From Thermococcus sp. (GTDB taxonomy: Archaea; Methanobacteriota_B; Thermococci; Thermococcales; Thermococcaceae), in contig NZ_JAMOQU010000072.1 of assembly GCF_027063845.1 (NCBI RefSeq), forward strand, positions 57,071 to 121,070: a stretch of DNA of 64,000 nucleotides, given 5' to 3'. The stretch's first letter is position 1. Each line of letters opens with the position of its first letter. Made by a program: the position numbers and the translations under genes. Below, piece by piece: positions 5,906 to 50,227 of this stretch. The notes beneath the pieces were generated by a model. That model saw only the letters and a list, made by a program, of their open reading frames with translations, was not told the origin of the DNA and ran no database searches.

Positions 5906-6466
5906 TCACTCCTCCTTGGCCTTTCTCTTCTCCTTCTCAATCCATTCGAACTTTCCGAGACCGGGCTGGCGCATGGTCATGTTAATCTTGTTCTCCCTGA
6001 TGATTCTGCTCTTGACGCTTATGCCGATTATCCTCGCCCTCACGAAGTCGCCGAGCTTGAGGACGCGGTTGGTTTCCTTGCCTATGAACTGCCTGTTCTT
6101 CTCGTCGAAGACGACGTAGTCGTCCATGAGCTGGCTTATGTGGACGAGACCGTCCATCGGACCGATTCTGATGAAGGCTCCGTAGGGCATCATCTCCACG
6201 ACTTCGCCCTCGACGACCTCCCCGTTCTCGGGCTTCCAGACGAGGACGTCAAAGGTGACCTCGTGGTAAGTGGCCCCGTCGCCTGGGACGATTATTCCCT
6301 GCCCCACGTCGTGAACGTCGAGGATTGCCAGGATTACTCCCTCGTCCCTATCGTAGATGCCCTCGTAGGTCTCGCGGAGGACCTTCTTGGCCGCATCCTT
6401 CGGGTCCATAGTGAACATCCTGGGCGGAATCCTGACGACGTCCTTAACCGTCAAAAGCTTGTACAT
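5906..6466 (-). CDS. rpo7: DNA-directed RNA polymerase subunit Rpo7 (RpoE')
   Basis: A 186-aa RNA polymerase stalk subunit that pairs with Rpo4. It begins MYKLLTVKDVVRIPPRMF, the N-terminal tip domain, and the second half holds an S1/OB domain (GEVVEMMPYGAFIRIGPMDGLVHISQL). GGAGG lies upstream of the ATG. It follows ppa by 30 bases in the same operon. Confidence 0.96.
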   Translation of the reverse strand: MYKLLTVKDVVRIPPRMFTMDPKDAAKKVLRETYEGIYDRDEGVILAILDVHDVGQGIIVPGDGATYHEVTFDVLVWKPENGEVVEGEVVEMMPYGAFIRIGPMDGLVHISQLMDDYVVFDEKNRQFIGKETNRVLKLGDFVRARIIGISVKSRIIRENKINMTMRQPGLGKFEWIEKEKRKAKEE

Positions 6467-6496
6467 GGCCTAACCTCCAAAAAGAGTTGAAGGGAA

Positions 6497-7030
6497 TCAC
6501 TCCTTTCCAAACTTCTCCTTGTAGAGCTCTATGGCCCTAAGGATTTCCTTCTTGGCCTCCTCGGCGTTGCCCCAGCCCTCAACGGTGGTGACCTTGCCCT
6601 GGAGCTCCTTGTACCTCTGGAAGAAGTGGGCAATCTCGTCGAGGAAGGCCTTTGGAACGTCGTCTATGTCCTTCCAGTCCTTGAAGTACGGGTCCTCTAC
6701 AGGAACGGCGAGAACCTTCCAGTCCTTGTCTCCGCTGTCCTCCATCTTCATAATGCCTATCGGCCTGGCCTCGATGATGGTGAGCGGGTAAACCGGCTCG
6801 CGCATGATGACCATTATGTCAAAGGGGTCGCCGTCGTCGTACCAGGTCTGCGGGATTATTCCGTAGTCCACTGGGTAGAAGAACGGGCTGTAAAGGACGC
6901 GGTCAAGCTTGAGGAGTCCGGTCTTCTTGTCGAGCTCGTACTTGTTCCTGCTTCCCTTCGGAATCTCTATGAGAGCGTACACAACGTCCGGAACGTTCGG
7001 TCCGGGCTCAAGCTCGTGGAACGGGTTCAT
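6497..7030 (-). CDS. ppa: Inorganic pyrophosphatase (family I)
   Basis: A 177-aa soluble pyrophosphatase that hydrolyses pyrophosphate released by polymer synthesis. The metal-binding signature is visible as [10 protein letters not shown], with upstream active-site segments KGSRNKYE and [12 protein letters not shown]. It is the first gene of the information operon. A TATA-like ACTTTAAAAG near 7083-7092 and an AGGTGG ribosome binding site precede it. Confidence 0.96.
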
Positions 7031-7082
7031 CTCTAACCACCTCTAACCCTTTTAGAATTCCTAAGGTGGCTTTCCGCTTGGG

Positions 7083-7093
7083 CTTTTAAAGTT
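7083..7093 (-). promoter_or_regulatory. Putative promoter of the ppa-rpo7-spt4 operon
   Basis: Read on the minus strand the segment is ACTTTAAAAGC, a TATA-like box about 55 bases before the ppa start. It lies in the 76-base gap after the DUF5305 gene, so the operon is likely transcribed independently of the surface locus. Confidence 0.5.
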
Positions 7094-7106
7094 GTTGGTG
7101 TCCGGG

Positions 7107-8069
7107 CTAATTCGCCCGGTACTCGTAAACGGTTTCACCGTCGGTTATCGCGTAGACGTCAGTATCGCCGTCGCGGTAGTGTACTATAGGCCTGTCAACG
7201 AGCTCGAAGACCCTCTCAAGGTCCTTCGGGGAGGAAAGCTCAACGCGCCTCCCATCGGGGGACGTTCCCTCAACCGTGTACTTCTTCAGACTCTTCAACT
7301 CCTTGGGCTCGCGTTCCTTCTTTTCGCGCTTGGCGTAGATGAACCCCACCGGGGGAATCGCGAAAAGCAGTGCCATGGCCGGGAAAACGGTTCTGGCCGT
7401 TGAGACTCCGACGTCTGAGCCGGCAAAGGAAAGCGAGTTCGTGGTTGTGCTGACCGTTCTCACGACCTTCTGGTACTCCTTGTCCGTCCCGCTGAAGTAC
7501 AGCATCCCCGATGCGTCGCGCTTCAGCCGGATTTCCTGGGTGAAGGACTCCCTCCCGTTGGCCAGAACTTTCACGGTGACGTAAACTTCCCTCTCGGCAC
7601 GGTAGAGGCCCGTTCCTTCGCGAACCATCTGGAGTCTCTCGTTCAGCTCAGTAAAGTTCAGCTCAACTGGAACCTCGAAGGAATTCACGAAGGTACCCCT
7701 GGCGAGGAGCTCCGTGTCGTTGACGATGTAGACCCTCTTCTTGCCCGAGGTGACGTAGTAGTTGACGTGAAGAACGGCTTCGTAGCTTCCCCTAGCACCG
7801 TCCGATGAGAACTCGTATGTCCCAACTATCATGTCGGTTATCTTTGAGGGATAGTATTCAAGGGAAGTCCCGTTACCGTAAACGGTTTCGTTCGAGAACA
7901 GCCCATAGGCCGTAAAGTGTCCCTCCTGCGCGTAGGCTTTTGAGTAGGTTGCCTTCGTTGTTACGGGTTCCCTCGAGTAGGCAACGCCCGAGTAGAGGGC
8001 AAAGATGAAGGCGAGGGAAACCGAGAGGGCAAGACCTCCGAGGAGCGCCCGCTTTTTATCAATCTTCAT
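7107..8069 (-). CDS. DUF5305-type membrane-anchored extracellular protein
   Basis: A 320-aa protein with an N-terminal membrane segment (near residues 8-30), a beta-rich external domain with several N-x-S/T sites, and a second membrane segment (ARTVFPAMALLFAIPPVGFIY) followed by a charged cytoplasmic tail. I recognise this as DUF5305-like; the function is unknown. Members are often found next to SipW-like signal peptidases and camelysin-like proteins in archaea, as here. The start is the ATG at 8069 with GGAGGTC upstream. It is the last gene of the locus, 2 bases after the preceding stop. Confidence 0.7.
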   Translation of the reverse strand: MKIDKKRALLGGLALSVSLAFIFALYSGVAYSREPVTTKATYSKAYAQEGHFTAYGLFSNETVYGNGTSLEYYPSKITDMIVGTYEFSSDGARGSYEAVLHVNYYVTSGKKRVYIVNDTELLARGTFVNSFEVPVELNFTELNERLQMVREGTGLYRAEREVYVTVKVLANGRESFTQEIRLKRDASGMLYFSGTDKEYQKVVRTVSTTTNSLSFAGSDVGVSTARTVFPAMALLFAIPPVGFIYAKREKKEREPKELKSLKKYTVEGTSPDGRRVELSSPKDLERVFELVDRPIVHYRDGDTDVYAITDGETVYEYRAN

Positions 8070-8071
8070 AA

Positions 8072-8941
8072 TCAACGACCTCCAGTTACGTGAACCGTGA
8101 TTTTATTCGAGACGACGTCGGTGCCGCACAGATGAGCCCCGCAGTTGAGGACGTAATCGCGCGGACAGTAAAAGATAACGCTCATTGGGATGTTCAGGGT
8201 TACCGTTTCTCCGTGAGCTACGTGGACGTGCCACACTATGAGCCAGCCCCAGCATCCACAGTGACCAACCCGGAAATGCATGTCTGCATCGCCGGAGCTC
8301 GCCTCTGGGTGGTGCACTATGTAAAACGCACTCCTCGGATATGGGATGAAGTCCTTTATGACGAAGTCGCCCTCCGGACCGTTGTTGGTAAAGTTGAGTT
8401 GCAGGGTTATTGAATACCAATTCCAAACAGTGTAGTTGTAAACGTCCCCAACTATGGCCTTCCTGAGCACGTAGGTTGGCTTCTCAACCTTAGCATACAT
8501 CGAGCAGTCCTTGAGCTCGGCGCTTCCGCCGTCCCACTCCGCATAAACGGTCAGGGGAACCTCGTAGGTGCCGTCATCAACGTCGTCATCCGCTGAGAAG
8601 CTCCCACCGATTGTAACCGACTCGCCCGGCTCAAGGGTGTAAGTTGAACCGTTAACGCTCCCGCTGAGGCCATCCGGAAGGGAGGAGTAGTTCCCCTCCA
8701 CGTGGAACGTTATCGGTCGGTCCATCAGGTTTTCAACTGTTATGGCCGTGAACTCCACGCCCGAGCTTGCGTTAACCGGAACCGGCTCCGACAGACAGCG
8801 GTACGCTATGTAGGAATCGCTTCCACCCACAACCTCAAACTCGGCACTCCTACTTGCCGTGTAAGCCCGAAAATTCCCGCTCGAACCCACTATCAGGAGC
8901 AGCCCGAGGAGGAAAGTCGTGATAAGTATGAATTTTCTCAT
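8072..8941 (-). CDS. Secreted beta-rich surface protein, camelysin/DUF1102-related N-terminus
   Basis: A 289-aa exported protein beginning MRKFILITTFLLGLLLIVGSS and then GNFRAYTASRSAEFEVVG. The post-signal segment parallels those of the two DUF1102 proteins upstream (GANFRYYSADRQASFDVVS and GANFRDYNADRSVHWDIVS), so the three share a processing site and early strand. The remainder looks like two beta-sandwich modules with paired cysteines (CGCWG, CPRDYVLNCGAHLCG). It carries several sequons and no C-terminal membrane anchor. It starts 1 base after the signal peptidase stop. The family is not certain; an accessory or tip subunit of a fibre is an inference. Confidence 0.6.
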   Translation of the reverse strand: MRKFILITTFLLGLLLIVGSSGNFRAYTASRSAEFEVVGGSDSYIAYRCLSEPVPVNASSGVEFTAITVENLMDRPITFHVEGNYSSLPDGLSGSVNGSTYTLEPGESVTIGGSFSADDDVDDGTYEVPLTVYAEWDGGSAELKDCSMYAKVEKPTYVLRKAIVGDVYNYTVWNWYSITLQLNFTNNGPEGDFVIKDFIPYPRSAFYIVHHPEASSGDADMHFRVGHCGCWGWLIVWHVHVAHGETVTLNIPMSVIFYCPRDYVLNCGAHLCGTDVVSNKITVHVTGGR

Positions 8942-8942
8942 G

Positions 8943-10001
8943 CTAACCATCTCCGAGTACCTTGGAGAGGATACTTCCCCTCCGTTTCCTGATTCTAAGA
9001 ACGTCCCCCTCCGAAATCCCCGCGAGATGGTAGAAGGCCAAGAGCACTGCCGAGATTAGCAGGGCGTAGGCTACGAACGGGAGATACGGGCTGAAGGAGT
9101 ACAGGAAAATCACGAGTGAAGCGGGAAGGATTGCCGGATAAGACCTGACCTGGAACTCCTCCCTGTAAATCTTTGTGTCCTCTGGAACGGTGACGTGGAC
9201 GGGAACTTCAACGCTTGAACCCCCACCAATGCGGAAAAACGTCGGCCCCAACAGCTGAGCCCGTTCTCCGTCGCCGCTGATGAAGTAGTAAAACGGGTAC
9301 AGGGCCTTGTTCTCGACGCTCAGGTTCTTATCGAAGGTTGAACCTGGCAGGTACCAGCCATCCCTCTGGCCGCCGGCGAGCGTTGAGGAGTAGCTGAAGG
9401 CTAGAGTTCCCCACGAGGCAACCGTCACGAAGAGAAAGCCTGCCACTATCATGACCGATGCAACCGCATATAGGGTTCTAATGCTCACGCGGTAGTACTT
9501 AACTCGCTTCTTCCTTTTGGAGTCCCCCGAAAACGTAAGGAACGCCCCGACGATAAGGAGGACCACTATCGCGTAGACGTTGCTGAGCCTTGCCCTCAGG
9601 GACTGGATTAAGTTCCCCCCTCCCCTCAGGACAAGGGGTTTGCCTAAGAGAACGACCACCTTTCCTGCCACGTCAGAGTTGTTTACGGGCGGATAAAGGC
9701 CGTCCTGCTGGTCGGTGGCAACGTTGTTGTCTCCCTTAGTTATGAATCCCTCATCGGTAACCGCGAAGACTCTGTGAACCGTCCAGCCGTCGCGCCTGTG
9801 GAAAACTATGATATCGCCAACCTCGAAGTTCTTCGCAAGGGGATTCATCAAGAAGAGGTCGCCCCTGTTTATGGTGGGCGTCATGCTATCGGAGTAAACG
9901 TACGAGAGAAACACGGGGCGGTCCAAGAAAAAGCCCGCTAACGAGCCAAGGAGAAAGGCAATCACAATGAAAGCAAAGGTGAACTCAAGTATTTTTTTCA
10001 T
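8943..10001 (-). CDS. Type I signal peptidase, ER/SipW-type, with C-terminal extension
   Basis: A 352-aa membrane signal peptidase of family S26. The catalytic serine is in YSDSMTPTI (about residue 39) and the second catalytic residue is histidine (TVHRV, about residue 76) rather than lysine, the ER/archaeal/SipW pattern; the aspartate box is KGDNN. Typical archaeal enzymes are about 150-220 aa. Here a second half follows with a membrane segment (LYAVASVMIVAGFLFVTVA), an external domain, another membrane segment and a basic tail, an arrangement like the neighbouring DUF5305 protein. It lies between DUF1102 genes and their presumed relatives, so it is probably dedicated to processing them. GGGGGAG precedes the ATG. 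Confidence 0.85.
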   Translation of the reverse strand: MKKILEFTFAFIVIAFLLGSLAGFFLDRPVFLSYVYSDSMTPTINRGDLFLMNPLAKNFEVGDIIVFHRRDGWTVHRVFAVTDEGFITKGDNNVATDQQDGLYPPVNNSDVAGKVVVLLGKPLVLRGGGNLIQSLRARLSNVYAIVVLLIVGAFLTFSGDSKRKKRVKYYRVSIRTLYAVASVMIVAGFLFVTVASWGTLAFSYSSTLAGGQRDGWYLPGSTFDKNLSVENKALYPFYYFISGDGERAQLLGPTFFRIGGGSSVEVPVHVTVPEDTKIYREEFQVRSYPAILPASLVIFLYSFSPYLPFVAYALLISAVLLAFYHLAGISEGDVLRIRKRRGSILSKVLGDG

Positions 10002-10047
10002 AGCAACTCCCCCTCAAAGGGGTTGGGGCAAAGGCCCCGAAAAGAAA

Positions 10048-10584
10048 TCACTGCTCGCAAGCTCCAGCAACCGCTTCAATGCTCATCTGGAATTGATACT
10101 CACCAATTGTTGAGTTCGTGTTGTCGAATATCATTCCAACCGGAATTGGGTTTCCATGCTCGACGGTGAACTGAATGTTGCTTGATGGTCCGGCTATGGG
10201 GCTGTCGTAGGTTCCCGCGAAGATTAAGACGTCATCGTGCTCGGTCTTGATGGTGACGCATATCGGGTAGCTGGTCTCGTTGTTCTCCCAGAGCTCGTTG
10301 CTGACCTCAAACATCTCCTCAAAGACGTAGGTCGTGTTCGGGCTCATACCGTTTCCACCGCCCGTCGGGTGGTTCGGGTTGTACTGGCTGATATCAACGT
10401 ACATCTTTCCAGCGTCGTAGGTCACATAGGGCTGAAGGGCGGTCAAATCAATCAGCTCGTTGTCGTCCGAGACGACATCGAAGCTCGCCTGCCTATCGGC
10501 AGAGTAATATCTGAAGTTTGCCCCGGCTCCAACCGCCAGGAGCATTCCAACCATCAGTAAAGCCAATCCAAACAGTTTATTCAT
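10048..10584 (-). CDS. DUF1102 secreted protein, TasA/camelysin-like fibre subunit candidate
   Basis: A 178-aa exported protein with signal MNKLFGLALLMVGMLLAVGAGA followed by NFRYYSADRQASFDVVSDD. DUF1102 proteins are beta-rich. TasA-like proteins form extracellular fibres by donor-strand exchange in bacteria and, as I recall, in the archaeal bundling pili of Pyrobaculum. This copy is a clear paralog of the next gene upstream, sharing DELIDLTxxQPY, VDIS and the MSPNTTYVFEEMFEVSNELWE region. A cysteine lies near the C-terminus. GGGGGT lies upstream of the ATG. The fibre role is inferred. Confidence 0.75.
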   Translation of the reverse strand: MNKLFGLALLMVGMLLAVGAGANFRYYSADRQASFDVVSDDNELIDLTALQPYVTYDAGKMYVDISQYNPNHPTGGGNGMSPNTTYVFEEMFEVSNELWENNETSYPICVTIKTEHDDVLIFAGTYDSPIAGPSSNIQFTVEHGNPIPVGMIFDNTNSTIGEYQFQMSIEAVAGACEQ

Positions 10585-10598
10585 CTTTCATACCCCCT

Positions 10599-11198
10599 TC
10601 ATGACCCCTGACCGCATTTGCCGACTAGCTCGCTGGGCTCGGTGCCAAGCCTGTATGCCTGGATGTGTATGGTGCTGCTCTCGCTGTCTCCGGGGAGCGA
10701 GTTCCCAACGGTGAAGTCCATACCAACCTTAACGGCCTCTCCCGGACCAAGGACAAAGCAGACGTCGTTCTTGGCCATGTCGCTGGCGTAGACTATCTGT
10801 CCGGTATCAACATAGTGAACGTCGTGGTCTGCTCCATAGAACTGTATCGCGGTGTTGGCGTTGGTAATCCTGACGACTATGCTCATGTTGTCCTCCCAAA
10901 GGTCGTTGCTTACCTCAAAGACCTCGTCGAAGTTGTACTCCGAGTTCGGGCTGAGGCCCTTGCCATAACCGGGGTAGTTCGGGTTGTCCGGGCTTATATC
11001 AACGACAAGAACGCCACCGTCGTTTATGTACGCGTAGGGCTGAATGGGCGTCAGGTCAATGAGTTCAGTATCATCGCTGACGATGTCCCAGTGGACACTC
11101 CTGTCAGCGTTGTAGTCCCTGAAGTTGGCTCCAGCCCCTAACACGAGACCAAAGGCCACCAACAGGCCAAAAATTCCTAAGGCAAGATTCTTTCTCAT
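10599..11198 (-). CDS. DUF1102 secreted protein, first gene of the surface locus
   Basis: A 199-aa paralog of the following gene: signal MRKNLALGIFGLLVAFGLVLGAGA, then NFRDYNADRSVHWDIVSDD, VDISPDNPNYPG, SPNSEYNFDEVFEVSNDLWE, and a cysteine near the C-terminus. The start at 11198 is chosen because GGAGG lies 9 bases upstream and the signal peptide then begins at once; the track's start lies upstream of that site. The gene is preceded by an unusually long, structured leader that can hide this ribosome binding site. It is probably the major subunit of the surface structure made by this locus (inference from its first position and its paralogy). Confidence 0.75.
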   Translation of the reverse strand: MRKNLALGIFGLLVAFGLVLGAGANFRDYNADRSVHWDIVSDDTELIDLTPIQPYAYINDGGVLVVDISPDNPNYPGYGKGLSPNSEYNFDEVFEVSNDLWEDNMSIVVRITNANTAIQFYGADHDVHYVDTGQIVYASDMAKNDVCFVLGPGEAVKVGMDFTVGNSLPGDSESSTIHIQAYRLGTEPSELVGKCGQGS

Positions 11199-11340
11199 TT
11201 TTTTTCGCCTCCAGATTGGAGGCACTGTGGCAGAGAAGTCAGCGGTGAGAGTGAAGGTTCATCCCTAAACCAAGACACACTCACAACCACTGCAACGGTG
11301 AAATCAACGCAGTGCCTCAGCAACCCCCTCGGGTTGCTCA
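11199..11340 (-). promoter_or_regulatory. Structured 5' leader with hidden ribosome binding site
   Basis: Between the TATA box and the DUF1102 start lie about 140 transcribed bases. On the minus strand, the ribosome binding site is one arm of a perfect 7-bp hairpin, GCCTCCA-ATC-TGGAGGC (11207-11223). The other arm is part of CAGTGCCTC, which can instead pair over 9 bp with GAGGCACTG further upstream (11310-11318). That upstream segment also forms a 6-bp stem with 11288-11293. An 8-bp AGCAACCC/GGGTTGCT hairpin (11319-11338) sits at the 5' end. The alternatives are mutually exclusive, as in translational riboswitches or protein-controlled leaders. The switching function is inferred; the pairings are directly visible. 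Confidence 0.6.
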
Positions 11341-11361
11341 CTAATTCCTTGGCCTGTTGGG

Positions 11362-11371
11362 GTATATATGA
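11362..11371 (-). promoter_or_regulatory. TATA box of the surface-fibre operon
   Basis: The minus strand reads CATATATACC here. With the usual 25-base spacing, transcription would begin near 11340, directly before the first leader hairpin. Confidence 0.55.
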
Positions 11372-11420
11372 AATGTCGGATTAACGGCCGGTAATGGGAG
11401 ATTACCCAAGAAAAGAAGGC

Positions 11421-11852
11421 CTAAATGCGCTTCATTTTCCTGTGGTGAATAACCCCAACACCGGCGTAAACCAGTGATGCGATGGCAAGGTGAAGGTTGT
11501 TCAGGTAGAGGGCAGTTAGGAAGAACAGCAGGGAGAGCCCTATGTAAAAGGTGCTCCAGCTTATGTCGTTCTTCTTGACGGTCTCCATGTAAACGGTAAC
11601 ATCGTCAGGCACCTTCACGAGGGTTACAATGCCGTGCTTAAAGGTTATAACCCCCTCACGCTCGAGCTTCGGAATATGCGTCTGGACCAAGCTCACGTAG
11701 ACGCTCTTTCTGTGCTTCCGGTCAGTGTTTCCCTCGTTCTTGGCTATGTACTCAACCATATCCCTCAGCTCGGCCCTCCCGTCGGACTTCTGGAGGTACT
11801 CAATCATGAGCATCCTCCTGCTGTTTCCGAGTATGACCGAGGAGGTCCCCAT
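11421..11852 (-). CDS. Membrane-anchored winged-helix regulator (ArsR/DUF7344-like)
   Basis: A 143-aa protein with an N-terminal winged helix (LGNSRRMLMIEYLQKSDGRAELRDMVEYIA, then LVQTHIPKLEREGVITFKHG) and two C-terminal membrane helices (STFYIGLSLLFFLTALYL and LHLAIASLVYAGVGVI). The architecture resembles DUF7344 proteins, common in haloarchaea. It lies 5 bases after the smaller winged-helix gene and directly upstream of the fibre operon, so it is a candidate regulator of it, perhaps sensing envelope state (inference). The ATG at 11852 has GGTGAT upstream. Confidence 0.72.
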   Translation of the reverse strand: MGTSSVILGNSRRMLMIEYLQKSDGRAELRDMVEYIAKNEGNTDRKHRKSVYVSLVQTHIPKLEREGVITFKHGIVTLVKVPDDVTVYMETVKKNDISWSTFYIGLSLLFFLTALYLNNLHLAIASLVYAGVGVIHHRKMKRI

Positions 11853-11857
11853 GGCAA

Positions 11858-12064
11858 TCACCGTGCCAACCTGTAGTGTTTTCTACCGTTGTTGCCCACC
11901 CTCGTCTCGACGAGACCGGCCTTGGCCAACCGTCTGAGGGCCCGCTCGACCCCCTGCCTCGTGACGTCAAAGCCCCTTTCCATAAGAAAACGGGTGATGA
12001 ACGCAACGGTCAGCTCCCTCTCGCGGAGCATCTCAACCATTTCACTCTCAAAATCCCCCCTCAT
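11858..12064 (-). CDS. Small winged-helix DNA-binding protein
   Basis: A 68-aa protein that is essentially one winged helix-turn-helix: ELTVAFITRFLMERGFDVTRQGVERALRRLAKAGLVETRVG, ending KHYRLAR. The start at 12064 has GGGAGGTC upstream; the longer track form runs through the promoter. It forms a two-gene unit with the membrane-anchored regulator. A TATA-like TTTAAATAC lies near 12117-12127. The target is unknown but the fibre operon is next. Confidence 0.7.
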   Translation of the reverse strand: MRGDFESEMVEMLRERELTVAFITRFLMERGFDVTRQGVERALRRLAKAGLVETRVGNNGRKHYRLAR

Positions 12065-12116
12065 GACTACGACCTCCCGACCGGAGTAAGACCCGGCCTT
12101 GGAAAAATAGGGGAAG

Positions 12117-12127
12117 GTAGTATTTAA
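12117..12127 (-). promoter_or_regulatory. Putative promoter of the two-regulator unit
   Basis: The minus strand reads GTTTAAATACT about 55-60 bases before the start of the small winged-helix gene, a good archaeal TATA box. The remaining AT-rich sequence up to the tRNA-Gln 3' end (about 12130-12455) holds no gene I can support. A 50-codon hydrophobic frame exists there but lacks a convincing promoter. Confidence 0.45.
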
Positions 12128-12456
12128 ACCTGCCTCAAAAGTTCGAGAAAGGAAGTTAGAGAAGAAGGGAAAGTGAATCAAGCAGAATTCGGGTAAAAAC
12201 GCTCAACAAAAGGACATATTCAAAAACAAAGGCAGAAATAGTCGGAACAGCAAACGGAATTCCACGGATTTTCCAAAATAAACGGGCAGAACTGTGCATC
12301 CAGCTCATCTTTGAAGGCGAATTCACGGGAAAGACCAGGAAAAATCGCGACGTGTTAGGATAAACATCAACGGCAAAAATACGTTTTGAAGTATAACACG
12401 AGGTTCGAGAAGGGAATTTAAGAGAGGGGGTTCGGGGTTCTGGAGCCCTTAAACGA

Positions 12457-12532
12457 TGGTAGCCCCGCGGGGATTCGAACCCCGGTCGCGGGATCCAGAG
12501 TCCCGCATGCTTGGCCGCTACACCACGGGGCT
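12457..12532 (-). tRNA. tRNA-Gln (anticodon CTG)
   Basis: A complete cloverleaf is visible on the minus strand: acceptor AGCCCCG pairing with CGGGGCT, anticodon stem CGGGA/TCCCG around loop CTCTGGA (anticodon CTG), and T-arm GGTTCGAATC. The 3' CCA is encoded. A TATA box (AATTTATAAATCC, about 12557-12570) lies upstream at normal distance. I see no intron. Confidence 0.95.
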
Positions 12533-12579
12533 GTGCCCGTTGAATAGCTAAAGGAGAGGATTTATAAATTTTACTCCCC

Positions 12580-13345
12580 GCAAGCTTTGCTTGCGCAAAG
12601 CTTGACCAAAATGGTCTAGCTATCCAAAAAGGCAGGAGAAAGTTGCATGCCTCATCAAGCACCCAATAGTTTTGGGGGTTTACCTCAAGGATAGCTTTGA
12701 GAGGAGGTGTCCAACTTAAAACAGCGCCCTTCGGGCGCTAATGGAAGAAACACGCTCCAGAATAGCAAGCTTAAAAGGAAACCCCTTGTGGAAACCAGCC
12801 ATTCCAATGAGCATGTCCACTTTGATACACACCCCCTATCGAGCAACTTCTCACCAGAAAATTTCCCCACTAGCGCTGAAACTTTGGTTTCATCAAAGTT
12901 TGTGATTCCTTTAACAAGGGCTTCTTCAAGAGCGTTTGCACTTTCAACATCTAGGAGATGTTTTGGAATTCTCACTTCTAGAGGCCTTTTAGTTTGGGTT
13001 TGCTTTTTATCGCGCTCCAAAGGAGCGCTTCTTAGAGAAACCCCCCTCAATAGCTCTTTTAAAGAGAATTCTCCCAAGAAAAATGGCCGTTTGAAAACGC
13101 AAACTCCTTAGAATTGCATTCTTAACGAAGAATCACGAGCCTTGGTCAAACTTCGCGAAGGCGAGCAAGCTTTAGGAAAGCTTGACCAAAGGATTGCCCT
13201 TATCACTAATGAGCAAAAAGTCAGTCGTGCACTAACCAAAGAGCAAATCCAAAGGGGTTTAACACTACAACAAAACCCCTCAGATAGTTTCAAATTGCCA
13301 TCGGCGCCCTCCGGGCGCCTTCTTAGAGTGAAACACTCTAAAGTG
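12580..13345. repeat. Hairpin-dense gap between tRNA-Gln and tRNA-Ile
   Basis: About 765 bases of lower GC than the neighbours, containing many perfect short inverted repeats with tiny loops: CAAGCTTTG/CAAAGCTTG (12581-12604), AGCGCCC/GGGCGCT (12723-12739), AAACTTTG/CAAAGTTT (12879-12901), GCGCTCC/GGAGCGC (13012-13028), CTCTTT/AAAGAG (13054-13066), a nested TTGGTCAA...TTGACCAA cruciform enclosing CAAGCTTT/AAAGCTTG (13143-13189), AGGGGTTT/AAACCCCT (13253-13280), GGCGCCC/GGGCGCC (13303-13319) and TTAGAGTG/CACTCTAA (13323-13341). No gene family is recognised. It may be a degenerate inserted element beside tRNA genes, or a structured RNA. Confidence 0.5.
12685..13077 (-). other. Uncertain ORF or gene remnant in the tRNA gap
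   Basis: A 130-codon frame whose middle looks protein-like (PLEVRIPKHLLDVESANAL and ITNFDETKVSALVGKFSGEKLL), while both ends run through the GC-rich hairpins (SAPLERD, LAPEGR). I do not recognise it. The codon use is poorer in GC than in the neighbours. It may be a decayed gene into which hairpin repeats were inserted, or chance. No convincing ribosome binding site is seen. Confidence 0.25.
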
Positions 13346-13432
13346 AAGCAAATTTAACAGAACCCTTCTGAAACTGCACTTTTCAGAAAGGCACATAAAC
13401 TTCCGCCAGCGCTTGCGAAGCAAGGGCTGCAA

Positions 13433-13510
13433 TGGTGGGCCCGCGGGGCTTCGAACCCCGGACCTCCCGCTTATCAGGCGGGCGCTCTGACCAGGCTGAG
13501 CCACGGGCCC
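13433..13510 (-). tRNA. tRNA-Ile (anticodon GAT)
   Basis: The minus strand shows acceptor GGGCCCG/CGGGCCC, D-arm GGCTCAGCCTGG, anticodon stem CCCGC/GCGGG with loop CTGATAA (anticodon GAT), T-arm GGTTCGAAGC, and an encoded CCA. It lies 10 bases after tRNA-Glu and is probably co-transcribed with it. I see no intron. Confidence 0.95.
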
Positions 13511-13520
13511 ATAAGAATTC

Positions 13521-13598
13521 TGGTGCCCCGGCCGGGATTTGAACCCGGGTCGCGGGATCGAGAGTCCCGCATGATTGACCGGGCTACACCACCGGGGC
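13521..13598 (-). tRNA. tRNA-Glu (anticodon CTC)
   Basis: The minus strand shows acceptor GCCCCGG/CCGGGGC, anticodon stem CGGGA/TCCCG around CTCTCGA (anticodon CTC), T-arm GGTTCAAATC, and an encoded CCA. A TATA-like CTTTTTAAACCC at about 13622-13634 (minus strand) is the likely promoter for the Glu-Ile pair. Confidence 0.95.
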
Positions 13599-13641
13599 GT
13601 GTCCGAGATTAAGGGCGAGGGAGGGTTTAAAAAGTTTTCGG

Positions 13642-14586
13642 TCAGAGAAGCTCTCTAACTGTTCTCCTCACGGCCTCATAACTGTTCAACCTCGGCCTCC
13701 AGCCGGTGGCTTTTGCCTTCTCTATGCTCAGACGCATGAACTTGACGTCGCCCTTCCAGCCCCTGCCCCCGTCAACTCCACCAGTGAAGACGAACCTCGG
13801 CTTAAGGCCCATCTCCTCGCTCACTATCTCCGCTATCTCCCGAACGGTTATCCAGTCGTCGTTGCCGAGGTTGTAGAAGTCAACGGTTTTCCCGGTGCCT
13901 TTGAAGTGCTCGAATATTTTGAGCATTCCCTCAACGGTGTCGCTCACGTGGAGGTAGCTCTTCCTCTGCGTTCCGTCGCCGAGTATCTCAAGCTCTTCCA
14001 GATTTCTCCTGAGCTTGTTGATGAAGTCGTAAATCACCCCGTGGTTGGAGCGCTCGCCTATGATGTTAGCAAGGCGGAAGATTAAAGCCCTGAACCCGAA
14101 GGTGTGGGCGTAGCCGCTTATCAAAGCCTCTGCCGCGAGCTTCGCCCCGCCGTAGACGCTTATCGGTTCGAGCGGGGCGTAGTCCTCGGGAGTAGGTATG
14201 ACCTCGGCGTCACCGTAAACCGTTGAAGAGCTCGTGAAGACGATGTACTTGGCGCTCGAATTCCTCATCGCGTTGAGGAGGTTGTAGGTTATCAGCACGT
14301 TGGTCTCGTAGAGAAGTTCGGGGCTCTGAGAGCCGATTCTAACCTCCGGGTTGGCCGCGAGGTGGAAGATGACCTCAACGTCTTTAACGGCCTCCCTCAC
14401 AATTTCCGGGTTTCTCATGTCGCCTTTGATGAACTCAAAGCGCTCGTTATCGAGCCAGCGTTTTATGTTGTTTAGACTGCCTGCGCTGAGGTCGTCGAGA
14501 ACCCTGACCTCATGTCCGAGCTCCATGAGCTTATCAACGAGGTGCGAGCCTATGAAGCCAGCCCCACCTGTGACAAGAACTTTCAT
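13642..14586 (-). CDS. NAD-dependent sugar epimerase/dehydratase (GalE-like)
   Basis: A 314-aa extended short-chain dehydrogenase. The NAD-binding motif TGGAGFIGSHL is at the N-terminus, SSSTVYG supplies the catalytic serine region and YGGAK the tyrosine-lysine pair. It most resembles archaeal UDP-glucose 4-epimerases, interconverting nucleotide sugars for glycan synthesis. It is transcribed away from the TA-pyrophosphorylase operon and is the first gene of the glycan block. The exact sugar cannot be read from the sequence. Confidence 0.85.
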   Translation of the reverse strand: MKVLVTGGAGFIGSHLVDKLMELGHEVRVLDDLSAGSLNNIKRWLDNERFEFIKGDMRNPEIVREAVKDVEVIFHLAANPEVRIGSQSPELLYETNVLITYNLLNAMRNSSAKYIVFTSSSTVYGDAEVIPTPEDYAPLEPISVYGGAKLAAEALISGYAHTFGFRALIFRLANIIGERSNHGVIYDFINKLRRNLEELEILGDGTQRKSYLHVSDTVEGMLKIFEHFKGTGKTVDFYNLGNDDWITVREIAEIVSEEMGLKPRFVFTGGVDGGRGWKGDVKFMRLSIEKAKATGWRPRLNSYEAVRRTVRELL

Positions 14587-22541: not shown

Positions 22542-23364
22542 GACGCCGTTAGTGTCTATCATAATACCTACCTACAATTCGGGTAAAACCCTCGGGTTGT
22601 GTTTGGAATCCATAAAGAATCAAACATACCCAAATATTGAAACTATCGTGGTGGATAACTTCTCCCGGGATAATACTCCAGAGATTTGTAAATGGTACGG
22701 TGCTAGGTTAATTCAAGTTAAAGGCGAGCGGGCCAAAGCCAAAAACATCGGCACGATGGAGGCCCGTGGAAAGTACGTTCTCTTTGTAGATTCTGACATG
22801 GAGCTGACACCAAAGGTCGTTGAAGAATGCGTCACCCTTATGGAATCCGACCCCAAAATTGGTGGTATTGTAATACCCGAACGCTCAGTTGGAGATAGCT
22901 ACTGGGTCAAGGTGCGGGACTTTGAACGGCAGTTTTACGCAGGGACCTCCATTGAATCGGCAAGATTCTTTAGGCGGGAACTTGTGCTCAAGGTCGGAGG
23001 ATTCGATGAAAACGTGGTTTTTTTCGAGGAATCAACACTGCCCCAGAAAATAGAGAAGCTCGGATACGACGTGTGGGCTCGAATCTCAGCTCCAATACTC
23101 CACCATGAGGAAGGGTTCAGTCTCAGAAAGTGGCTGAGGAAGAAGTACTACTATGGTCAAACTGCAAGAGAATACAAAAGGAAATATCACGAGTTCGGGA
23201 GCAAGCAGATAAGCGCCTTATACAGGTTTGGCCTATTCTTCAAGAACAAAAGATTCTGGAGCCGACCCCATCTCGCGATTGGAGTGATAACGTTGAAACT
23301 CCTCGAATATGTTGCTGCTGGAGGGGGTTATATGAATTATCTCCAGACAGATAAAAAGAGGTGA
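22534..23364 (+). CDS. Glycosyltransferase family 2
   Basis: A 276-aa GT2 enzyme with PLVSIIIPTYNSGKTLGLCLES, VVDNFSRDNTPEI, the DxD in FVDSDMELTP, and a late H-x-E (HHEEGFSLRKW). The start is the ATG at 22534 with GGTTGGTG upstream. Base composition begins to drop here compared with the aglB region, marking the approach to the AT-rich cassette. Confidence 0.82.
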   Translation: MDKTPLVSIIIPTYNSGKTLGLCLESIKNQTYPNIETIVVDNFSRDNTPEICKWYGARLIQVKGERAKAKNIGTMEARGKYVLFVDSDMELTPKVVEECVTLMESDPKIGGIVIPERSVGDSYWVKVRDFERQFYAGTSIESARFFRRELVLKVGGFDENVVFFEESTLPQKIEKLGYDVWARISAPILHHEEGFSLRKWLRKKYYYGQTAREYKRKYHEFGSKQISALYRFGLFFKNKRFWSRPHLAIGVITLKLLEYVAAGGGYMNYLQTDKKR

Positions 23365-23369
23365 GCATT

Positions 23370-24380
23370 ATGGATTATGTAACAATATCCCCTGAAGTTC
23401 TAAAGGCAAAATCAGGCATAGGAAAGATTCACTATTACTCTTTTGGCGAATTTCTAAGGGGAAACTGTGAGATTCCTCATGGGGAAAGAAATGCTGTCGT
23501 ATCAGTAAAATTCGAGATTGGAAGTACCAATGATGTCCCGAGCAATTTAAGATACAAATACTCAGATAGTATTTTACTGGATAATCTTCACGATAATATC
23601 GTCGTAAAGCTTGAGAAAGCCATTTCCCCAATTGGCAGAATTAAAGCCCTCCTTAAAATAGGGCCAGCAAATAAATTGTCCAATATTTCTCTGGTAGTTA
23701 ACAGGAGATATTATACAATATTCAAGATGAAAATAGAAAACGTCATCCCCCCAGGGATATTGCTCAAAGACGCTACGTATCTTTCGCTTATTCATAATAA
23801 CTTCATACCTCTACATTCTTCAGCATTTGCGAAGGACAAAAATGAGGGATACATAATAATGGCTCCCCCGAATGTGGGGAAAACTACCACAGTCTTAGAA
23901 GCTGTAAAAAATGGATTCTACGGGCTGAGTGAAGATATCTCAATAGCAAACTTAAAATCGAAAACGGTTCATGCGGTACCATGCACTGCCACCCAACATC
24001 ATGAAACAAAGATTAACAAACTGTTAGGTCCTCTTTCATACTTTACAGCTTCAAGCTTCAAAACATTTGGAGAGGAATACAGAGAGAGAATAATACCAAA
24101 GGCAAAAATCAAAGGAATATTCATCCTTGAAAAAGGGAACAGTCTTCTTCAAGAGCTCTCTTCAGAGGAAGCGTTTGAGAGGATTATCCTACTGAACAGA
24201 GATGAATTCAAATGGCACTCTGACATGATAATTACTGCTATTCAATACTATTTCCCTGAAATAAGGATTGAACATGTAGAAGAAGAAATAATAAATAATC
24301 TCGTCACCAGCATTCCTGTTTATTTGGTTAGAGAAAAATCTCCCTTTGAGTACTTTAGAAGCATCAGGGATGTAATATGA
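23370..24380 (+). CDS. HPr-kinase/PEPCK-like P-loop protein in the glycan cassette
   Basis: A 336-aa AT-rich gene. The middle contains IPLHSSAFAKDKNEGYIIMAPP then NVGKTTT, a P-loop in the context seen in HPr-kinase-related proteins of exopolysaccharide clusters, followed by FYGLSEDISIAN. The N-terminal ~150 residues are unrecognised. These kinases are poorly characterised; phosphorylation of a carrier or sugar is a guess. The start is the ATG at 23370 with GGTGAGC upstream. It overlaps the next gene by 4 bases. Its low GC suggests acquisition together with the next gene. Confidence 0.6.
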   Translation: MDYVTISPEVLKAKSGIGKIHYYSFGEFLRGNCEIPHGERNAVVSVKFEIGSTNDVPSNLRYKYSDSILLDNLHDNIVVKLEKAISPIGRIKALLKIGPANKLSNISLVVNRRYYTIFKMKIENVIPPGILLKDATYLSLIHNNFIPLHSSAFAKDKNEGYIIMAPPNVGKTTTVLEAVKNGFYGLSEDISIANLKSKTVHAVPCTATQHHETKINKLLGPLSYFTASSFKTFGEEYRERIIPKAKIKGIFILEKGNSLLQELSSEEAFERIILLNRDEFKWHSDMIITAIQYYFPEIRIEHVEEEIINNLVTSIPVYLVREKSPFEYFRSIRDVI

Positions 24381-27300
24381 AAGCAAACAAAAGAATCGAA
24401 ATAGTAGGTCTAGTTATTACTAGTGTTGCACTTAGTATATTAGTTGGTAGAAAAGTACTATCAATGCCCGGCATCCCCATATTAGCAGAGCAAATAGAAA
24501 CATATACCGCGGATAATTTCTGGAAAGTTGTGTACCCCACATGGAATGAAAACACTGAAGTATTTAGCATAGCGGATTTCCCCAAACTATACTTGTATGC
24601 CATCATCAAGGGATTGAGCTATATATTTGGATTCTCCATTACAATTAAACTGTTCCTTATTCTGCCAAATGTGGTAGCTGTGCTCACTGCATATTACTTA
24701 GTAGAATATTTAATATTAAAAATAGGAAACAACAATGGCAAGTTTACTGAGATAATAAATAGGAATTCTTGGATATATCTCCTACTGCTCACCGTAAGCA
24801 TAACTTATGGGTTCAATCCATGGATTATGTGTCGAAGCAGGAACATAATACTAAGATGGCAGTATGCGCTAACGCCCCTGATAATCTATTTGTGGATGAA
24901 GATACTTACTGAAAAGAAAATCAAACCGACACAGATTGTAGCCATCTCTGCTATTCTGGCATTAGTCGAGACATCAAGGTTTATTGTAAAAATAGGTGTC
25001 CCATTAGCCGTATATATGCTTTCATATATAGTACTAAACCGCTCAGAGGTTAAAAAAGCGATAAAGAGAACGATATTAGTTGCATTGCTCTTTACAAGCT
25101 TTGTACTACCCATATATCTTCCTATTTTGTACCACTCAATGAACTCAGGAATACGAGCAGTCTCTGTTTTCAATCTTGATATGGTAGGTGGGGAAAAGCC
25201 CATTAATGTATTCTCCTTGTACTTTGTCCATTATATTGGAATAACATATAATATCCCCTTTGAATTAACAGAGAAATTCCCTTATTTTTTCATTACGATA
25301 TCAATTATATCCTTCATTGGGCTAATTTTATTAAAGAGGCATTTGTGGATTCCCCTAACAACAACAGTATTATTCCTTATTACCTTCATCTTTTCAGCGC
25401 TAAAGGATAGCCCGTTCTGGTTTATCCTTTCAACGGCATTTGGCGAGTATCCAACACTTGGAAGACTTTTCCGTCAGCCATACCACAACTCCCAAATGCT
25501 TCCATTATATTTGATAATACTCTTAGCATACACAGCAGGATACATCGTGCTAAAAAATTCAAAAAAGAACCGAACTATTGCAACGATATTTATGATTTTA
25601 GTCGGAGTTGCATCGCTGGCATCTAGTTGGCCGTTATTGACCGGAGATTTAAACGGATACTGGACCCCCTCTTCAATCCCTGAGGACTATATTAACGTTA
25701 ACAACTTGATTTCAAATAATACAACGTATCACGCACTATGGATTCCTGAATTCTGGGGAAGAAAGGCGGTATGGATAAAAGCCCAAAATCCATACAATGG
25801 ACCTCCAACAGGCATATTTGCAGTTAGGTCATCATCAATTCCCTCCTACGATTACCAACAATTCACATTCTTCAACTATTATTTCCCCATTCGCTCTCCA
25901 AATCCACGATATAATTTGACGTACCTTGGAGAATACTGGGATTTAATCTATGGAAGTCTTGGAATTAAGTACATAATAATTCATAATGATGTAAAATGGA
26001 ACAAAAATGATAGGTATTCAAGTGAACTCGTAGAACAAGCTATAAGGGAACTCTCAAAACTTGAAAGAATCCATGAAATATACTCCGGCGAATACATTAC
26101 TGTGTTCGAAATATCGAATGTGTCCCCACCAGTTTTGATAAGTGGACATCCAGTTATTGCATATACGGGTCTCACTGGATACCCCCCCGAAGTAGCGACT
26201 TTTAAAAAAGCCCCATTAGTATATAGGGAGCAGTATCTCAATATCCCACCATTAAACCAGGATATCGTACTAACATACAATGACATTTTCCCAAGTATCT
26301 TTGAACAAATAAAACAAAAATACATTGTTTCGCCAAGAATGCTTTCACAGGATTATTTTAAACCAAAAGATAATTGGACATATATTTATTCTTCTCAAGC
26401 AAGAGATTTCATCAAGTACCTAATCGACCTCAGACCACAATACACTTTCAATTTCGATTATGGGTTAGGGATAACATTTACAATGGCTCCAAATGCATCT
26501 ATCTCTTCAAGTATTCACATTGAACCTGGCCAATATGTACCGGTTATACGCCTATTAAAGAGCTCCATGGGAGGACTACTAAAGATAACTATAGACAATT
26601 ACACTTTCTACATAGATACTAATAGTACAATAAACTCTTTTGAGTATATACCACTATCCACAATATCCTTTAATTCCAAAGGTATTAAAATTAACATCAT
26701 TAATTTGAAGGGTCTAAATGCAATTAATTTCATAGCATTTATACCCAAAAATGAATATCAAGATGCGCTCAATCAGAGGGGCAAAAAACATGAAATGATA
26801 CTATACGAGCTTACACCTAATGTGTTTGAGCAGAAGGATGTAATATATGAGACTAATAAAAGTTCAATCACCGGATGGCAACTTAAGTTTACAAGCCCAA
26901 CGGGAGAACTTGTAGCTAATATAACTATTCCAAAAGTAGGGTTTTACAAAGTTAAAATTCAAGGTGACGGGATGTTTAGTGTTAAAATTTCAAACCAAAC
27001 ATTGATAATTAACACAATCAACTCATCTAGTGCAAATAGCACTCTTCTAAGACTATCCCCCGGCACAGACCGTATAGAGATAACCCCCTACCTGGGAATA
27101 CAATCGCTGCTCCCAGATTATTCTTTTGAAAACAACCTTAGCTCTTGGAGTTCAGGGAGTAACAAATTCACTAAGGAACTCTCAAACGACTCAATCCAAG
27201 GTAATCATAGCCTAATGGTTTATACTACCTCAACAAAGCCTCACACGTGGAGCTGGATTTGGAGTAATCCTATAAATGTAACACCTGGGAAAGAATACAT

Positions 27301-28090
27301 CATAATAACTCACGTCAAGATACAAAACACGAACGGAACTCATATTCCTATCGTTGGTTATTTCGAAAATCTTCACAAATGGAAACAGTTGAGGCAATGT
27401 CCCACAGGTAGAGTAGGAACAGGAACGTTTAACTGGACCGAGTATAAGTGTATAGTAAAAATTCCCGAGAACGTTACCAAAATCAGAATAGTCCTAAACG
27501 CAGGGTGGGTTCTCGACCCCTCCAAAGGGCCCGCAATAACATGGTTCGACGACATTGAAGTATATCCCTTAGATGAATTACCAACTATAGACTCAGTATG
27601 GCTCTACTCCGTCAACAATCCCAACGAGACCCTCGAGGACATCTTCAACGTCAACGAAACTCCCGCCACAGTCCAAAGCTACACAAAAATCAACCCAACC
27701 CTCTGGAAAGTCAAAGTCAGCGCCACGAAGCCGTTCTTCCTGACCTTCGCCGAGTCCTATGACCCGCTCTGGGAGGCGAGGGTCTACAAGGATGGAAAGC
27801 TCGTCGAGAAAGTCAAGCCCGTTCCAGTATACGGAGTCATAAACGGCTTCTGGATAAACCAGACCGGCAATTTAACAATAGTCCTCCGCTACACGCCCCA
27901 GGACTGGTTTGAGCTCGGCCTCAAGATTTCACTCACAATGTTTATCCTCAGCATGTTCTACATAATCCACGACTGGAGACGAGAAAAAGGGGACAGATGG
28001 GCGAGGAAGCTCGAAAAGATATTCACCAGAGCAATCACCGGCATTAAAAAGAGGTTCAAAAAAGTCATCGGAGGCGTGATTAAGAGATGA
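24377..28090 (+). CDS. Giant membrane glycan protein with carbohydrate-binding module, mosaic in composition
   Basis: A 1237-aa protein. The first ~410 residues contain about 10-12 membrane helices like GT-C glycosyltransferases. A long external part with many N-x-S/T sites follows, including a CBM4/9-like module (LPDYSFENNLSSWSSG ... ITWFDDIEVYPL, about residues 910-1070), then a final domain (FLTFAESYDPLWEARVY), one membrane helix and a basic tail. Codon use is strongly AT-rich up to about base 27,595, then abruptly GC-rich to the end, indicating a recombination joint near residue 1074. A glycosyltransferase or glycan-polymerising role is likely but unproven. Confidence 0.65.
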   Translation: MKANKRIEIVGLVITSVALSILVGRKVLSMPGIPILAEQIETYTADNFWKVVYPTWNENTEVFSIADFPKLYLYAIIKGLSYIFGFSITIKLFLILPNVVAVLTAYYLVEYLILKIGNNNGKFTEIINRNSWIYLLLLTVSITYGFNPWIMCRSRNIILRWQYALTPLIIYLWMKILTEKKIKPTQIVAISAILALVETSRFIVKIGVPLAVYMLSYIVLNRSEVKKAIKRTILVALLFTSFVLPIYLPILYHSMNSGIRAVSVFNLDMVGGEKPINVFSLYFVHYIGITYNIPFELTEKFPYFFITISIISFIGLILLKRHLWIPLTTTVLFLITFIFSALKDSPFWFILSTAFGEYPTLGRLFRQPYHNSQMLPLYLIILLAYTAGYIVLKNSKKNRTIATIFMILVGVASLASSWPLLTGDLNGYWTPSSIPEDYINVNNLISNNTTYHALWIPEFWGRKAVWIKAQNPYNGPPTGIFAVRSSSIPSYDYQQFTFFNYYFPIRSPNPRYNLTYLGEYWDLIYGSLGIKYIIIHNDVKWNKNDRYSSELVEQAIRELSKLERIHEIYSGEYITVFEISNVSPPVLISGHPVIAYTGLTGYPPEVATFKKAPLVYREQYLNIPPLNQDIVLTYNDIFPSIFEQIKQKYIVSPRMLSQDYFKPKDNWTYIYSSQARDFIKYLIDLRPQYTFNFDYGLGITFTMAPNASISSSIHIEPGQYVPVIRLLKSSMGGLLKITIDNYTFYIDTNSTINSFEYIPLSTISFNSKGIKINIINLKGLNAINFIAFIPKNEYQDALNQRGKKHEMILYELTPNVFEQKDVIYETNKSSITGWQLKFTSPTGELVANITIPKVGFYKVKIQGDGMFSVKISNQTLIINTINSSSANSTLLRLSPGTDRIEITPYLGIQSLLPDYSFENNLSSWSSGSNKFTKELSNDSIQGNHSLMVYTTSTKPHTWSWIWSNPINVTPGKEYIIITHVKIQNTNGTHIPIVGYFENLHKWKQLRQCPTGRVGTGTFNWTEYKCIVKIPENVTKIRIVLNAGWVLDPSKGPAITWFDDIEVYPLDELPTIDSVWLYSVNNPNETLEDIFNVNETPATVQSYTKINPTLWKVKVSATKPFFLTFAESYDPLWEARVYKDGKLVEKVKPVPVYGVINGFWINQTGNLTIVLRYTPQDWFELGLKISLTMFILSMFYIIHDWRREKGDRWARKLEKIFTRAITGIKKRFKKVIGGVIKR

Positions 28091-33122: not shown

Positions 33123-33689
33123 ATGAGACGAACAATAGTTGGTATACTCCTGCTGGCAATACTCGCCCTGGCAGGAGTGGCCAAATCCCACTTCACAGAC
33201 ACGGCAATCTCTAAGGGCAACACCGTGACAACCGCCGAGTTCGACATCGCCATAAGTAAGGACGGAAAGCGCTTCTACAACGAGCTTAAGCTCTTCGACC
33301 TGAGCAACCTGCTCCCGGGGGAGAAGAAAAACGTGACATTCCTCGTCAAGAACAGGGGCACGGTCACGATGAACCGGCTGACACTGACGCTGAACGTCCG
33401 AAACTACGAGGTGAAGATGTCCCCGGCGGAGAAAGCCGTTGATTCAACACCCGAAAAGGGAGAACTCGGAAAGTGGCTGGTTCTGAAAACAATCAGCGTG
33501 AACGGGAAGCCCGTGCTCGTGAACAAAACCCTCGACGAGCTCAGCGGGAAGACGATATCCCTGCCGGTAAAGCTCAAGCCAGGGGAGAAGGCCGAAGTAA
33601 GGATGACCTTTGACCTCCCGGTCGAGGCGGGCAACGAGTGTCAGACCGATGGAATAGACGTGACGCTTAGGCTCGACGCGAGCCAGTGA
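33123..33689 (+). CDS. TasA/camelysin-like secreted protein
   Basis: A 188-aa exported protein: signal MRRTIVGILLLAILALAGVAKS, then HFTDTAISKGNTVTTAEFDI, the post-cleavage pattern of SipW-processed TasA/camelysin proteins (short spacer, asparagine-threonine strand, then FDI). A beta-sandwich follows with LLPGEKKNVTFLVKN, typical of this fold, and LPVKLKPGEKAEVRMTF. There is no second membrane anchor. TasA-like proteins form biofilm fibres in bacteria; the signal peptidase at 8943-10001 could process this one. The gene has its own promoter and stands alone. Confidence 0.7.
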   Translation: MRRTIVGILLLAILALAGVAKSHFTDTAISKGNTVTTAEFDIAISKDGKRFYNELKLFDLSNLLPGEKKNVTFLVKNRGTVTMNRLTLTLNVRNYEVKMSPAEKAVDSTPEKGELGKWLVLKTISVNGKPVLVNKTLDELSGKTISLPVKLKPGEKAEVRMTFDLPVEAGNECQTDGIDVTLRLDASQ

Positions 33690-34526: not shown

Positions 34527-38315
<3,789 letters not shown>

Positions 38316-48508: not shown

Positions 48509-48585
48509 GATCAACTGCTTTCTCCTTTTATTACCTCGGACTTCAACGACACCATACAGAGTAGTATGATATAATTAATTCATCA

Positions 48586-48672: not shown

Positions 48673-48683
48673 TAAGTAACTGT

Positions 48684-50108: not shown

Positions 50109-50227
50109 AATAGCTGTTACCTTAGTTAAATCGATCCTATCGTTACCACTATTCATAAATCCGAGGGTTATCTGAGTTATTGCCACTATCTAAGTTCGCT
50201 TTAATTTAATAATATTTACATATTTAT

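Follow-up and report, generated by a model that had tools for sequence, protein, structure and literature searches.

Introduction

The closest described counterparts of the system reported here are the TasA/TapA/SipW system of Bacillus subtilis and two archaeal filaments. In TasA, the phenylalanine at position P2' of the cleavage site and its neighbours hinder the bacterial signal peptidase LepB, and the archaeal-like SipW serves TasA (PMC10269814). The bundling pilin of Pyrobaculum calidifontis (PDB 7ueg) is, according to citing papers (PMC9674648, PMC9715654), a donor-strand archaeal fibre subunit; the thread filament of Sulfolobus acidocaldarius (Saci_0406) is a donor-strand archaeal filament with an ordinary Sec signal peptide, not one of class III (PMC9715654). 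We describe here a locus on the minus strand (12064-7107) of a 64,000-nt stretch of DNA from Thermococcus sp. (GCF_027063845.1, contig NZ_JAMOQU010000072.1, positions 57,071-121,070 of the forward strand; hereafter the window), which holds two DUF1102 genes, genes for a third exported protein, a signal peptidase and a DUF5305 protein, and two regulator genes. The locus is likely to encode a donor-strand-type surface fibre, and its translation would be set by a 5' leader RNA that can form either of two pairings, P2 or P3. Gene content and order, homology, the fold match, the undocked N-terminal strand, the covariation of leader hairpin P1 and of P2, and the invariance of the strand shared by P2 and P3 were computed here.

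Results and Discussion

Organization of the locus

Open reading frames and Pfam searches bore out every gene named in the original prediction, in place and on the same strand. Read along the minus strand, with coordinates according to the preferred start codons, the genes are REG1 (11858-12064), a small winged-helix protein of 68 amino acids from the ATG at 12064, with sub-threshold GntR/MarR-type winged-helix matches only; REG2 (11421-11852; PF24035, E 1.8e-18), a DUF7344 winged-helix protein; DUF1102a (10599-11198; PF06510, E 1e-55), the putative major fibre subunit; DUF1102b (10048-10584; PF06510, E 4e-54), a putative second fibre subunit with donor segment NFRYYSADR; the archaeal/ER-type signal peptidase (8943-10001); the third exported protein (8072-8950), a putative minor subunit or adhesin; and a DUF5305 membrane protein (7107-8069; PF17231, E 2.1e-10), the putative anchor or assembly factor. 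DUF1102a and DUF1102b are separated by 14 nt, DUF1102b and the peptidase gene by 46 nt; later genes touch or overlap.

Exported proteins and their N-terminal segment

Both DUF1102 proteins match PF06510 over the full profile length (188 and 183 bits vs a gathering score of 22.2). The third exported protein has no Pfam match of its own; it is homologous to DUF1102 across the signal peptide, the donor segment and the head (hhalign E 1.5e-13, aligned over 138 columns including the segment), a similarity beyond chance. The post-signal segment that the original prediction ascribed to all three proteins is real (ANFRDYNADRSVHWDIV, ANFRYYSADRQASFDVV, GNFRAYTASRSAEFEVV); its motif, given as GNFRxYxAxR, needs one correction, in that the G before NFR is found only in the third protein and is A in both DUF1102 proteins.

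The AlphaFold2 (AF2) model of DUF1102a is beta-rich, with a mean predicted local distance difference test score (pLDDT) of 81.7, and residues 23-43, the mature N-terminus, are mostly below 50. The invariant residues A24, F26, R33 and V40 sit in this low-pLDDT segment. A conserved segment without a place in the monomer model has the appearance of a donor strand, and the undocked and conserved N-terminus suggests a donor-strand reading. In the model of the third protein (pLDDT 84.6) the same segment is undocked (residues 23-45 below 50), so that the free N-terminal strand anticipated by the original prediction is seen in the models of both proteins.

Foldseek comparison of the DUF1102a model with 350,542 PDB chains placed the bundling pilin 7ueg first (E 3.2e-5, prob 1.00). 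FimA structures ranked next, among them a variant reversed at the N-terminus. The match to a donor-strand subunit is good but not conclusive as judged from the model. The tenth match is a hyperthermophile tube protein, 9bab, and the DUF1102 proteins might accordingly build another polymer, a tube or cannula-like sheath and no thin fibre; since its E-value is only 1.3e-2 against 3.2e-5 for the bundling pilin, such a polymer appears very improbable. Adiponectin/TNF-type sequence matches of DUF1102 were treated as chance likeness among jelly-roll proteins, and Foldseek matches of the third protein (integrins, AgI/II adhesins) as generic Ig similarity; neither was used.

The C-terminal Ig-like domain of the third protein aligns with the DUF11 region of its orthologues, which match DUF11, and the number of DUF11-type C-terminal domains in the alignment is zero, one or two. 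This variable number fits an adhesin-like end subunit, as far as sequences can tell.

Signal peptidase and cleavage site

The peptidase is an archaeal signal peptidase I (NCBIfam TIGR02228, E 8.6e-20; Pfam S24/S26, E 4e-6 and 6e-5). Its catalytic motif, SxSMxP...HRV...KGD, is found in 40/42 peptidase relatives, the exceptions being one split frame and one diverged or frameshifted gene. Past the catalytic domain, transmembrane segments and an extracytoplasmic part of ~100 residues can be read from the sequence. A phenylalanine stands at P2' of the presumed cleavage site (A|NF in both DUF1102 proteins, GNF in the third) and is invariant in the alignments (F26 in alignment A2, F27 in A3). By analogy, a dedicated peptidase together with a P2' phenylalanine appears to follow the TasA/SipW logic, and processing of the three proteins by this peptidase would be expected.

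The likeness to TasA/TapA/SipW thus covers an ER-type peptidase encoded in the operon, the P2' phenylalanine (PMC10269814) and a minor subunit that shares its N-terminal segment with the major one. Unlike TasA, the proteins DUF1102a, DUF1102b and the third protein have no match to the TasA/camelysin models PF12389 and NF046066 or to the SipW-type signal-peptide model TIGR04088; the peptidase has an extra C-terminal part, and DUF5305 and DUF11-type domains are added. Direct sequence homology of DUF1102 to TasA or AbpX was rejected, as there was no significant sequence match and no TasA/camelysin profile match. The bundling pilin, like the DUF1102 proteins, belongs to a hyperthermophilic archaeon with exported subunits and is the top fold match of DUF1102a, whereas DUF1102 shows no significant sequence match to bundling pilin or AbpX chains. 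Saci_0406 was not among the matches to DUF1102 in the structure and sequence searches listed.

The NCBIfam fimbrial models place DUF1102 in wider company. TafA (NF052520, fimbrial protein) weakly matches 28/48 DUF1102 proteins (best E 8.5e-6), and TafE (NF052522, fimbrial adapter) 13/48 (best E 3.8e-4), the TafE match in DUF1102a spanning signal peptide and donor segment; all are far under the curated cut-offs (20.9 vs 190 bits for TafA, 14.7 vs 155 for TafE). A literature search found no paper on the TafA/TafE models. Several small exported TafE-like proteins (GAFTSVSADR...ALLALTP) are encoded in loci L184, L185 and L186, from another family of the same class; their TafE matches are better than those of DUF1102, still sub-cut-off. 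A response-regulator-like gene adjoins in two of these loci, and apparently no signal peptidase lies beside them. Given these Taf matches, a broader superfamily of archaeal fimbrial proteins, one that NCBI already recognises, probably includes DUF1102.

A second, TasA-type operon

The same genome holds a second operon (L007, 5986-10445; contig C19) with an HTH_45 regulator, two TasA-like proteins whose signal peptides are of the SipW type (TIGR04088), a further small exported protein, a SipW-like peptidase and DUF5305. A profile built from its subunits, from relatives of these and from the protein encoded at 33123 in the window matches TasA (5of1, 8aur; E 3e-7 and 4e-7) and AbpX (9rhp, 9sj2; E 2e-6 and 9e-6); the sequence match to AbpX belongs to these TasA-like subunits and not to the DUF1102 locus. 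The two operons have in common their plan, peptidase type and DUF5305, and differ in subunit family. The original prediction had called the DUF1102 locus self-contained, a term to be taken in the light of this other, similarly planned operon in the genome.

Since this second operon combines the plan with true TasA-like subunits, the DUF1102 operon can be read as a fibre operon, and the analogy is the best independent argument for doing so. It bears on an alternative in which the three exported proteins are non-polymerising, surface-bound or secreted monomers or oligomers, such as S-layer lectins or adhesins, with the N-terminus docking on DUF5305 or the S-layer. DUF5305 and DUF11-type domains are indeed generic surface modules, polymerisation is deduced, and an undocked N-terminus could bind another partner. 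A near-equivalent subunit pair with a minor subunit sharing the N-terminal segment, a dedicated peptidase and matches to filament-subunit folds nevertheless resemble donor-strand systems, and the sister operon has the same plan; we therefore regard non-polymerising proteins as unlikely.

A lone gene for a 188-amino-acid exported protein (33123-33689, plus strand) in the window gives a weak TasA/camelysin (Peptidase_M73) match. It has no signal peptidase of its own and is flanked by glycosyltransferase and HAD-type phosphatase genes.

Conservation across Thermococcales

DUF1102 was found in 87/94 Thermococcales genomes (72/74 of those of good quality), usually in 2-4 copies. Gene order is conserved: the succession REG1, REG2, two or three DUF1102 genes, peptidase, third protein and DUF5305 recurs, with variations, in 40 fetched loci of other Thermococcales. 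REG1 precedes REG2 in most of these loci; in those of genus g3, REG1 was not detected and the third protein was short or undetected. Strong DUF5305 copies of the kind in the second operon occur in ~12/94 genomes. The DUF1102 locus is core in Thermococcales and the TasA-type operon accessory. Within the phylum, DUF1102 is nearly confined to Thermococcales, with one weak match outside. DUF1102 relatives on viral contigs were looked for, and none was confirmed. The Thermococcus genomes that a contig scan gave were nine metagenome-assembled genomes. An inorganic pyrophosphatase gene often adjoins the DUF1102 locus in the fetched loci.

Regulators

Transmembrane transcription regulators are known from archaea, where they act on genes for motility and pilins (PMC10269533). 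REG2 is probably a membrane-tethered transcription regulator as well, because two C-terminal hydrophobic stretches follow its DUF7344 winged helix. From position only, we infer that REG2 controls the fibre operon. Directly upstream of the regulator genes lie three tRNA genes (12460-12532, 13436-13510 and 13524-13598, minus strand).

A structured leader RNA upstream of DUF1102a

Most 5'-untranslated regions (5'-UTRs) of T. kodakarensis are 10-50 nt long (median 16; PMC4247193), and 84.6% of those of T. onnurineus are 0-50 nt (PMC5316973). The leader between REG2 and DUF1102a, which starts at about 11341 and measures ~105-160 nt among the leaders, is therefore unusual. It is matched by covariance model R1 at 11197-11343 (117.5 bits, minus strand, as are all elements below) and is a conserved structure not previously described and absent from Rfam. 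A search of positions 6000-14000 of the window at E up to 5 gave only tRNAs and sub-threshold matches outside the leader, and a known Rfam riboswitch or leader family was rejected on this ground. A coding upstream open reading frame was likewise rejected, as no frame is kept and some open frame occurs in 23/32 leaders vs 18 expected.

An alignment of 32 distinct leaders was used to describe the structure. The TATA box of the fibre operon (CATATATA, 11363-11370) is present in 32/32, and P1 begins 29-32 nt past it in all of them despite widely varying total length, which places P1 at the predicted transcription start. P1 (11320-11337) is the 5'-terminal hairpin GCAACCC...GGGTTGC, with three covarying pairs and 97.5% (model-fitted) or 93.1% (MAFFT) of cells paired. 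P2 pairs GRGGCAYYG directly after P1 with CRRTGCCTC directly before the Shine-Dalgarno sequence; in the window, its 5' strand is GAGGCACTG (11310-11318) and its 3' strand CAGTGCCTC (11219-11227), the former pairing with 11227-11219. P3 (11207-11223) is the hairpin GCCTCC-loop-GGAGGC over the Shine-Dalgarno sequence (11212-11208), given by RNAalifold on the 32 leaders and by the minimum-energy fold of this leader. P2 and P3 are mutually exclusive because both use the GCCTC strand (11223-11219), which is invariant in 32/32 leaders while its P2 partner varies.

In the MAFFT alignment, which was not fitted to structure, 95.9% of P1 and P2 cells are paired and six pairs show two-sided change, in 16 cells vs 4.2 in shuffles; pairing falls to 35-53% when the partner is slid by 1-3 columns. 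In the model-fitted alignment (15 pairs) 97.6% of cells are paired, with six two-sided pairs and 16 cells, and sliding the partner gives at most 49.2%. P2 has two-sided changes at three pairs, two of them clearly compensatory (C-G to U-A and U-A to C-G, in separate genome groups) and one a G-C to U-G change. At pair 38:163, 21 leaders have G on the 5' side and 11 have A, but the U on the 3' side is never C; a locked 3' strand is as expected if it also pairs with the Shine-Dalgarno sequence in P3. Unaided, RNAalifold recovers P3 and part of P1. The leaders fold more stably than dinucleotide shuffles, with a mean z of -3.1, the leader of the window with -4.0.

A covariance-model search of the 94 genomes gave confident matches in 34, one in each and always at the fibre operon. 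A regulon-wide switch was rejected, given one confident copy per genome; other matches are few and weak (E 5e-4 to 0.07) and lie away from the operon. Genus g4 has a leader of ~58 nt that consists of the 5' hairpin and the Shine-Dalgarno sequence only; the model's alignment to it is weak but correctly placed. The switch part thus has the look of an insert that separated an older 5' hairpin from the ribosome-binding site. In several other Thermococcales lineages (L055-L077) a leader of only 44-74 nt precedes the first DUF1102 gene, and a hairpin is still predicted at the transcription start or close to it, as in L068 (GTGCCTCAT...ATGGGGCAC).

The other genera examined, in which the switch part is missing and what is kept is the Shine-Dalgarno sequence and a hairpin at the predicted start or close by, would suit a leader that is a mere 5' stabiliser (P1) with a fixed weak ribosome-binding site. 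The two-sided changes at three P2 pairs, and the constancy of the GCCTC strand opposite a variable P2 partner, which is what a strand also serving P3 should show, argue against it, and we hold a P2/P3 region that is no switch to be somewhat doubtful. Temperature could also be the cue: the computed mean probability of P3 drops with heating, from 0.81 (37 C) through 0.53 (85 C) to 0.32 (95 C), and an RNA thermometer, in which P3 melts on warming to growth temperature with no ligand or protein, would behave in this way. Heat melts any hairpin, however, a covarying competitor such as P2 would be unnecessary, and the leader of the window is still mostly closed at 85 C (P3 0.83); a thermometer is decidedly unlikely. 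Compared with P3, P2 has a computed mean of 0.36 at 85 C; weights so comparable at growth temperature mean that a modest binding energy could tip the balance.

That the leader represents a new class of RNA switches in archaea, with a small molecule or a protein of the operon as the trigger, is put forward tentatively, as a proposal somewhat short of an even chance. Feedback by an operon product or a fibre-specific signal is more likely as a trigger than a general metabolite, because the leader is confined to one operon. Like crcB, the preQ1-like sRk28 and the L7Ae leader, it is a folded region at the 5' end of an archaeal mRNA for which a role in gene control is proposed; unlike these, it has no Rfam match, belongs to one operon only and has no known ligand, and its own trait is the exclusive pairings around the Shine-Dalgarno sequence.

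Proposed mechanism

In the mechanism we propose, Sec would export DUF1102a and DUF1102b, and the ER-type peptidase of the operon (Ser-His-Asp motif) would cleave after GAGA, freeing NFRxYxAxR... The freed N-terminal strand would slot into the open groove of the neighbouring subunit. The fibre would be capped by the third protein, acting as a minor subunit at the tip (adhesin) or at the base, while DUF5305 and the extra extracytoplasmic part of the peptidase would keep the growing end attached to the membrane. Control of transcription would fall to the two winged-helix genes upstream, one of which probably encodes a membrane-bound protein. With P2 formed the Shine-Dalgarno sequence would be free (ON), and with P3 formed it would be hidden (OFF); P1 may also protect the 5' end of the mRNA, given that the other genera examined, too, have a hairpin close to or at the predicted start. 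Polymerisation, the roles of the third protein, of DUF5305 and of the regulators, the ON/OFF assignment and the trigger are what we infer.

Several points weigh against this mechanism. Foldseek TM-scores are ~0.3 and the root-mean-square deviation is 13.5 for the match of DUF1102a to 7ueg, so that the fold match rests on E-value and rank, and TasA is absent among the 50 Foldseek matches listed for DUF1102a. The profile comparison of DUF1102 with the TasA-like proteins aligns 17 columns only (hhalign); the TasA likeness of the original prediction therefore holds at the level of the fold and does not extend to sequence. The donor-strand case comes from models of monomers, from which insertion into a neighbouring subunit is extrapolated. 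The full leader is absent as such from other genera, and hence the fibre can do without it. With the Shine-Dalgarno sequence fixed, P3 has no room for covariation, its support being invariance and energy, and the computed P2/P3 balance hinges on extrapolating energy parameters to 85 C. A donor-strand fibre with its own peptidase, minor subunit and anchor is still the best-supported explanation at the level of prediction, as originally proposed.

If it is correct, a set of genes that nearly all Thermococcales carry, and to which no function had been assigned, acquires a testable role in a common surface fibre of the order that is not a type IV pilus, and DUF1102 genes of other archaea are pointed to as candidates. 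Subunits unrelated to TasA by sequence would use the same plan of peptidase, minor subunit and DUF5305, making the fibre plan separable from the protein family. As a possible instance of RNA switching in a hyperthermophile, the leader is compact and open to genetic work; a study of T. kodakarensis from 2014 noted that direct in vivo experimental support for archaeal attenuators or riboswitches was then lacking (PMC4247193), and an RNA switch, if true, would mean that archaea control the formation of fibres or biofilms in a riboswitch-like manner.

Other features of the window

A ribonucleotide reductase open reading frame (35019-38315, plus strand; 1098 amino acids) has an apparent mini-intein, as judged from its sequence. 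Three AT-rich islands, at about 23000-28000, 48000-51000 and 59000-61000, have a G+C content of about 0.36-0.40 vs 0.5-0.57 elsewhere and are candidates for foreign DNA.

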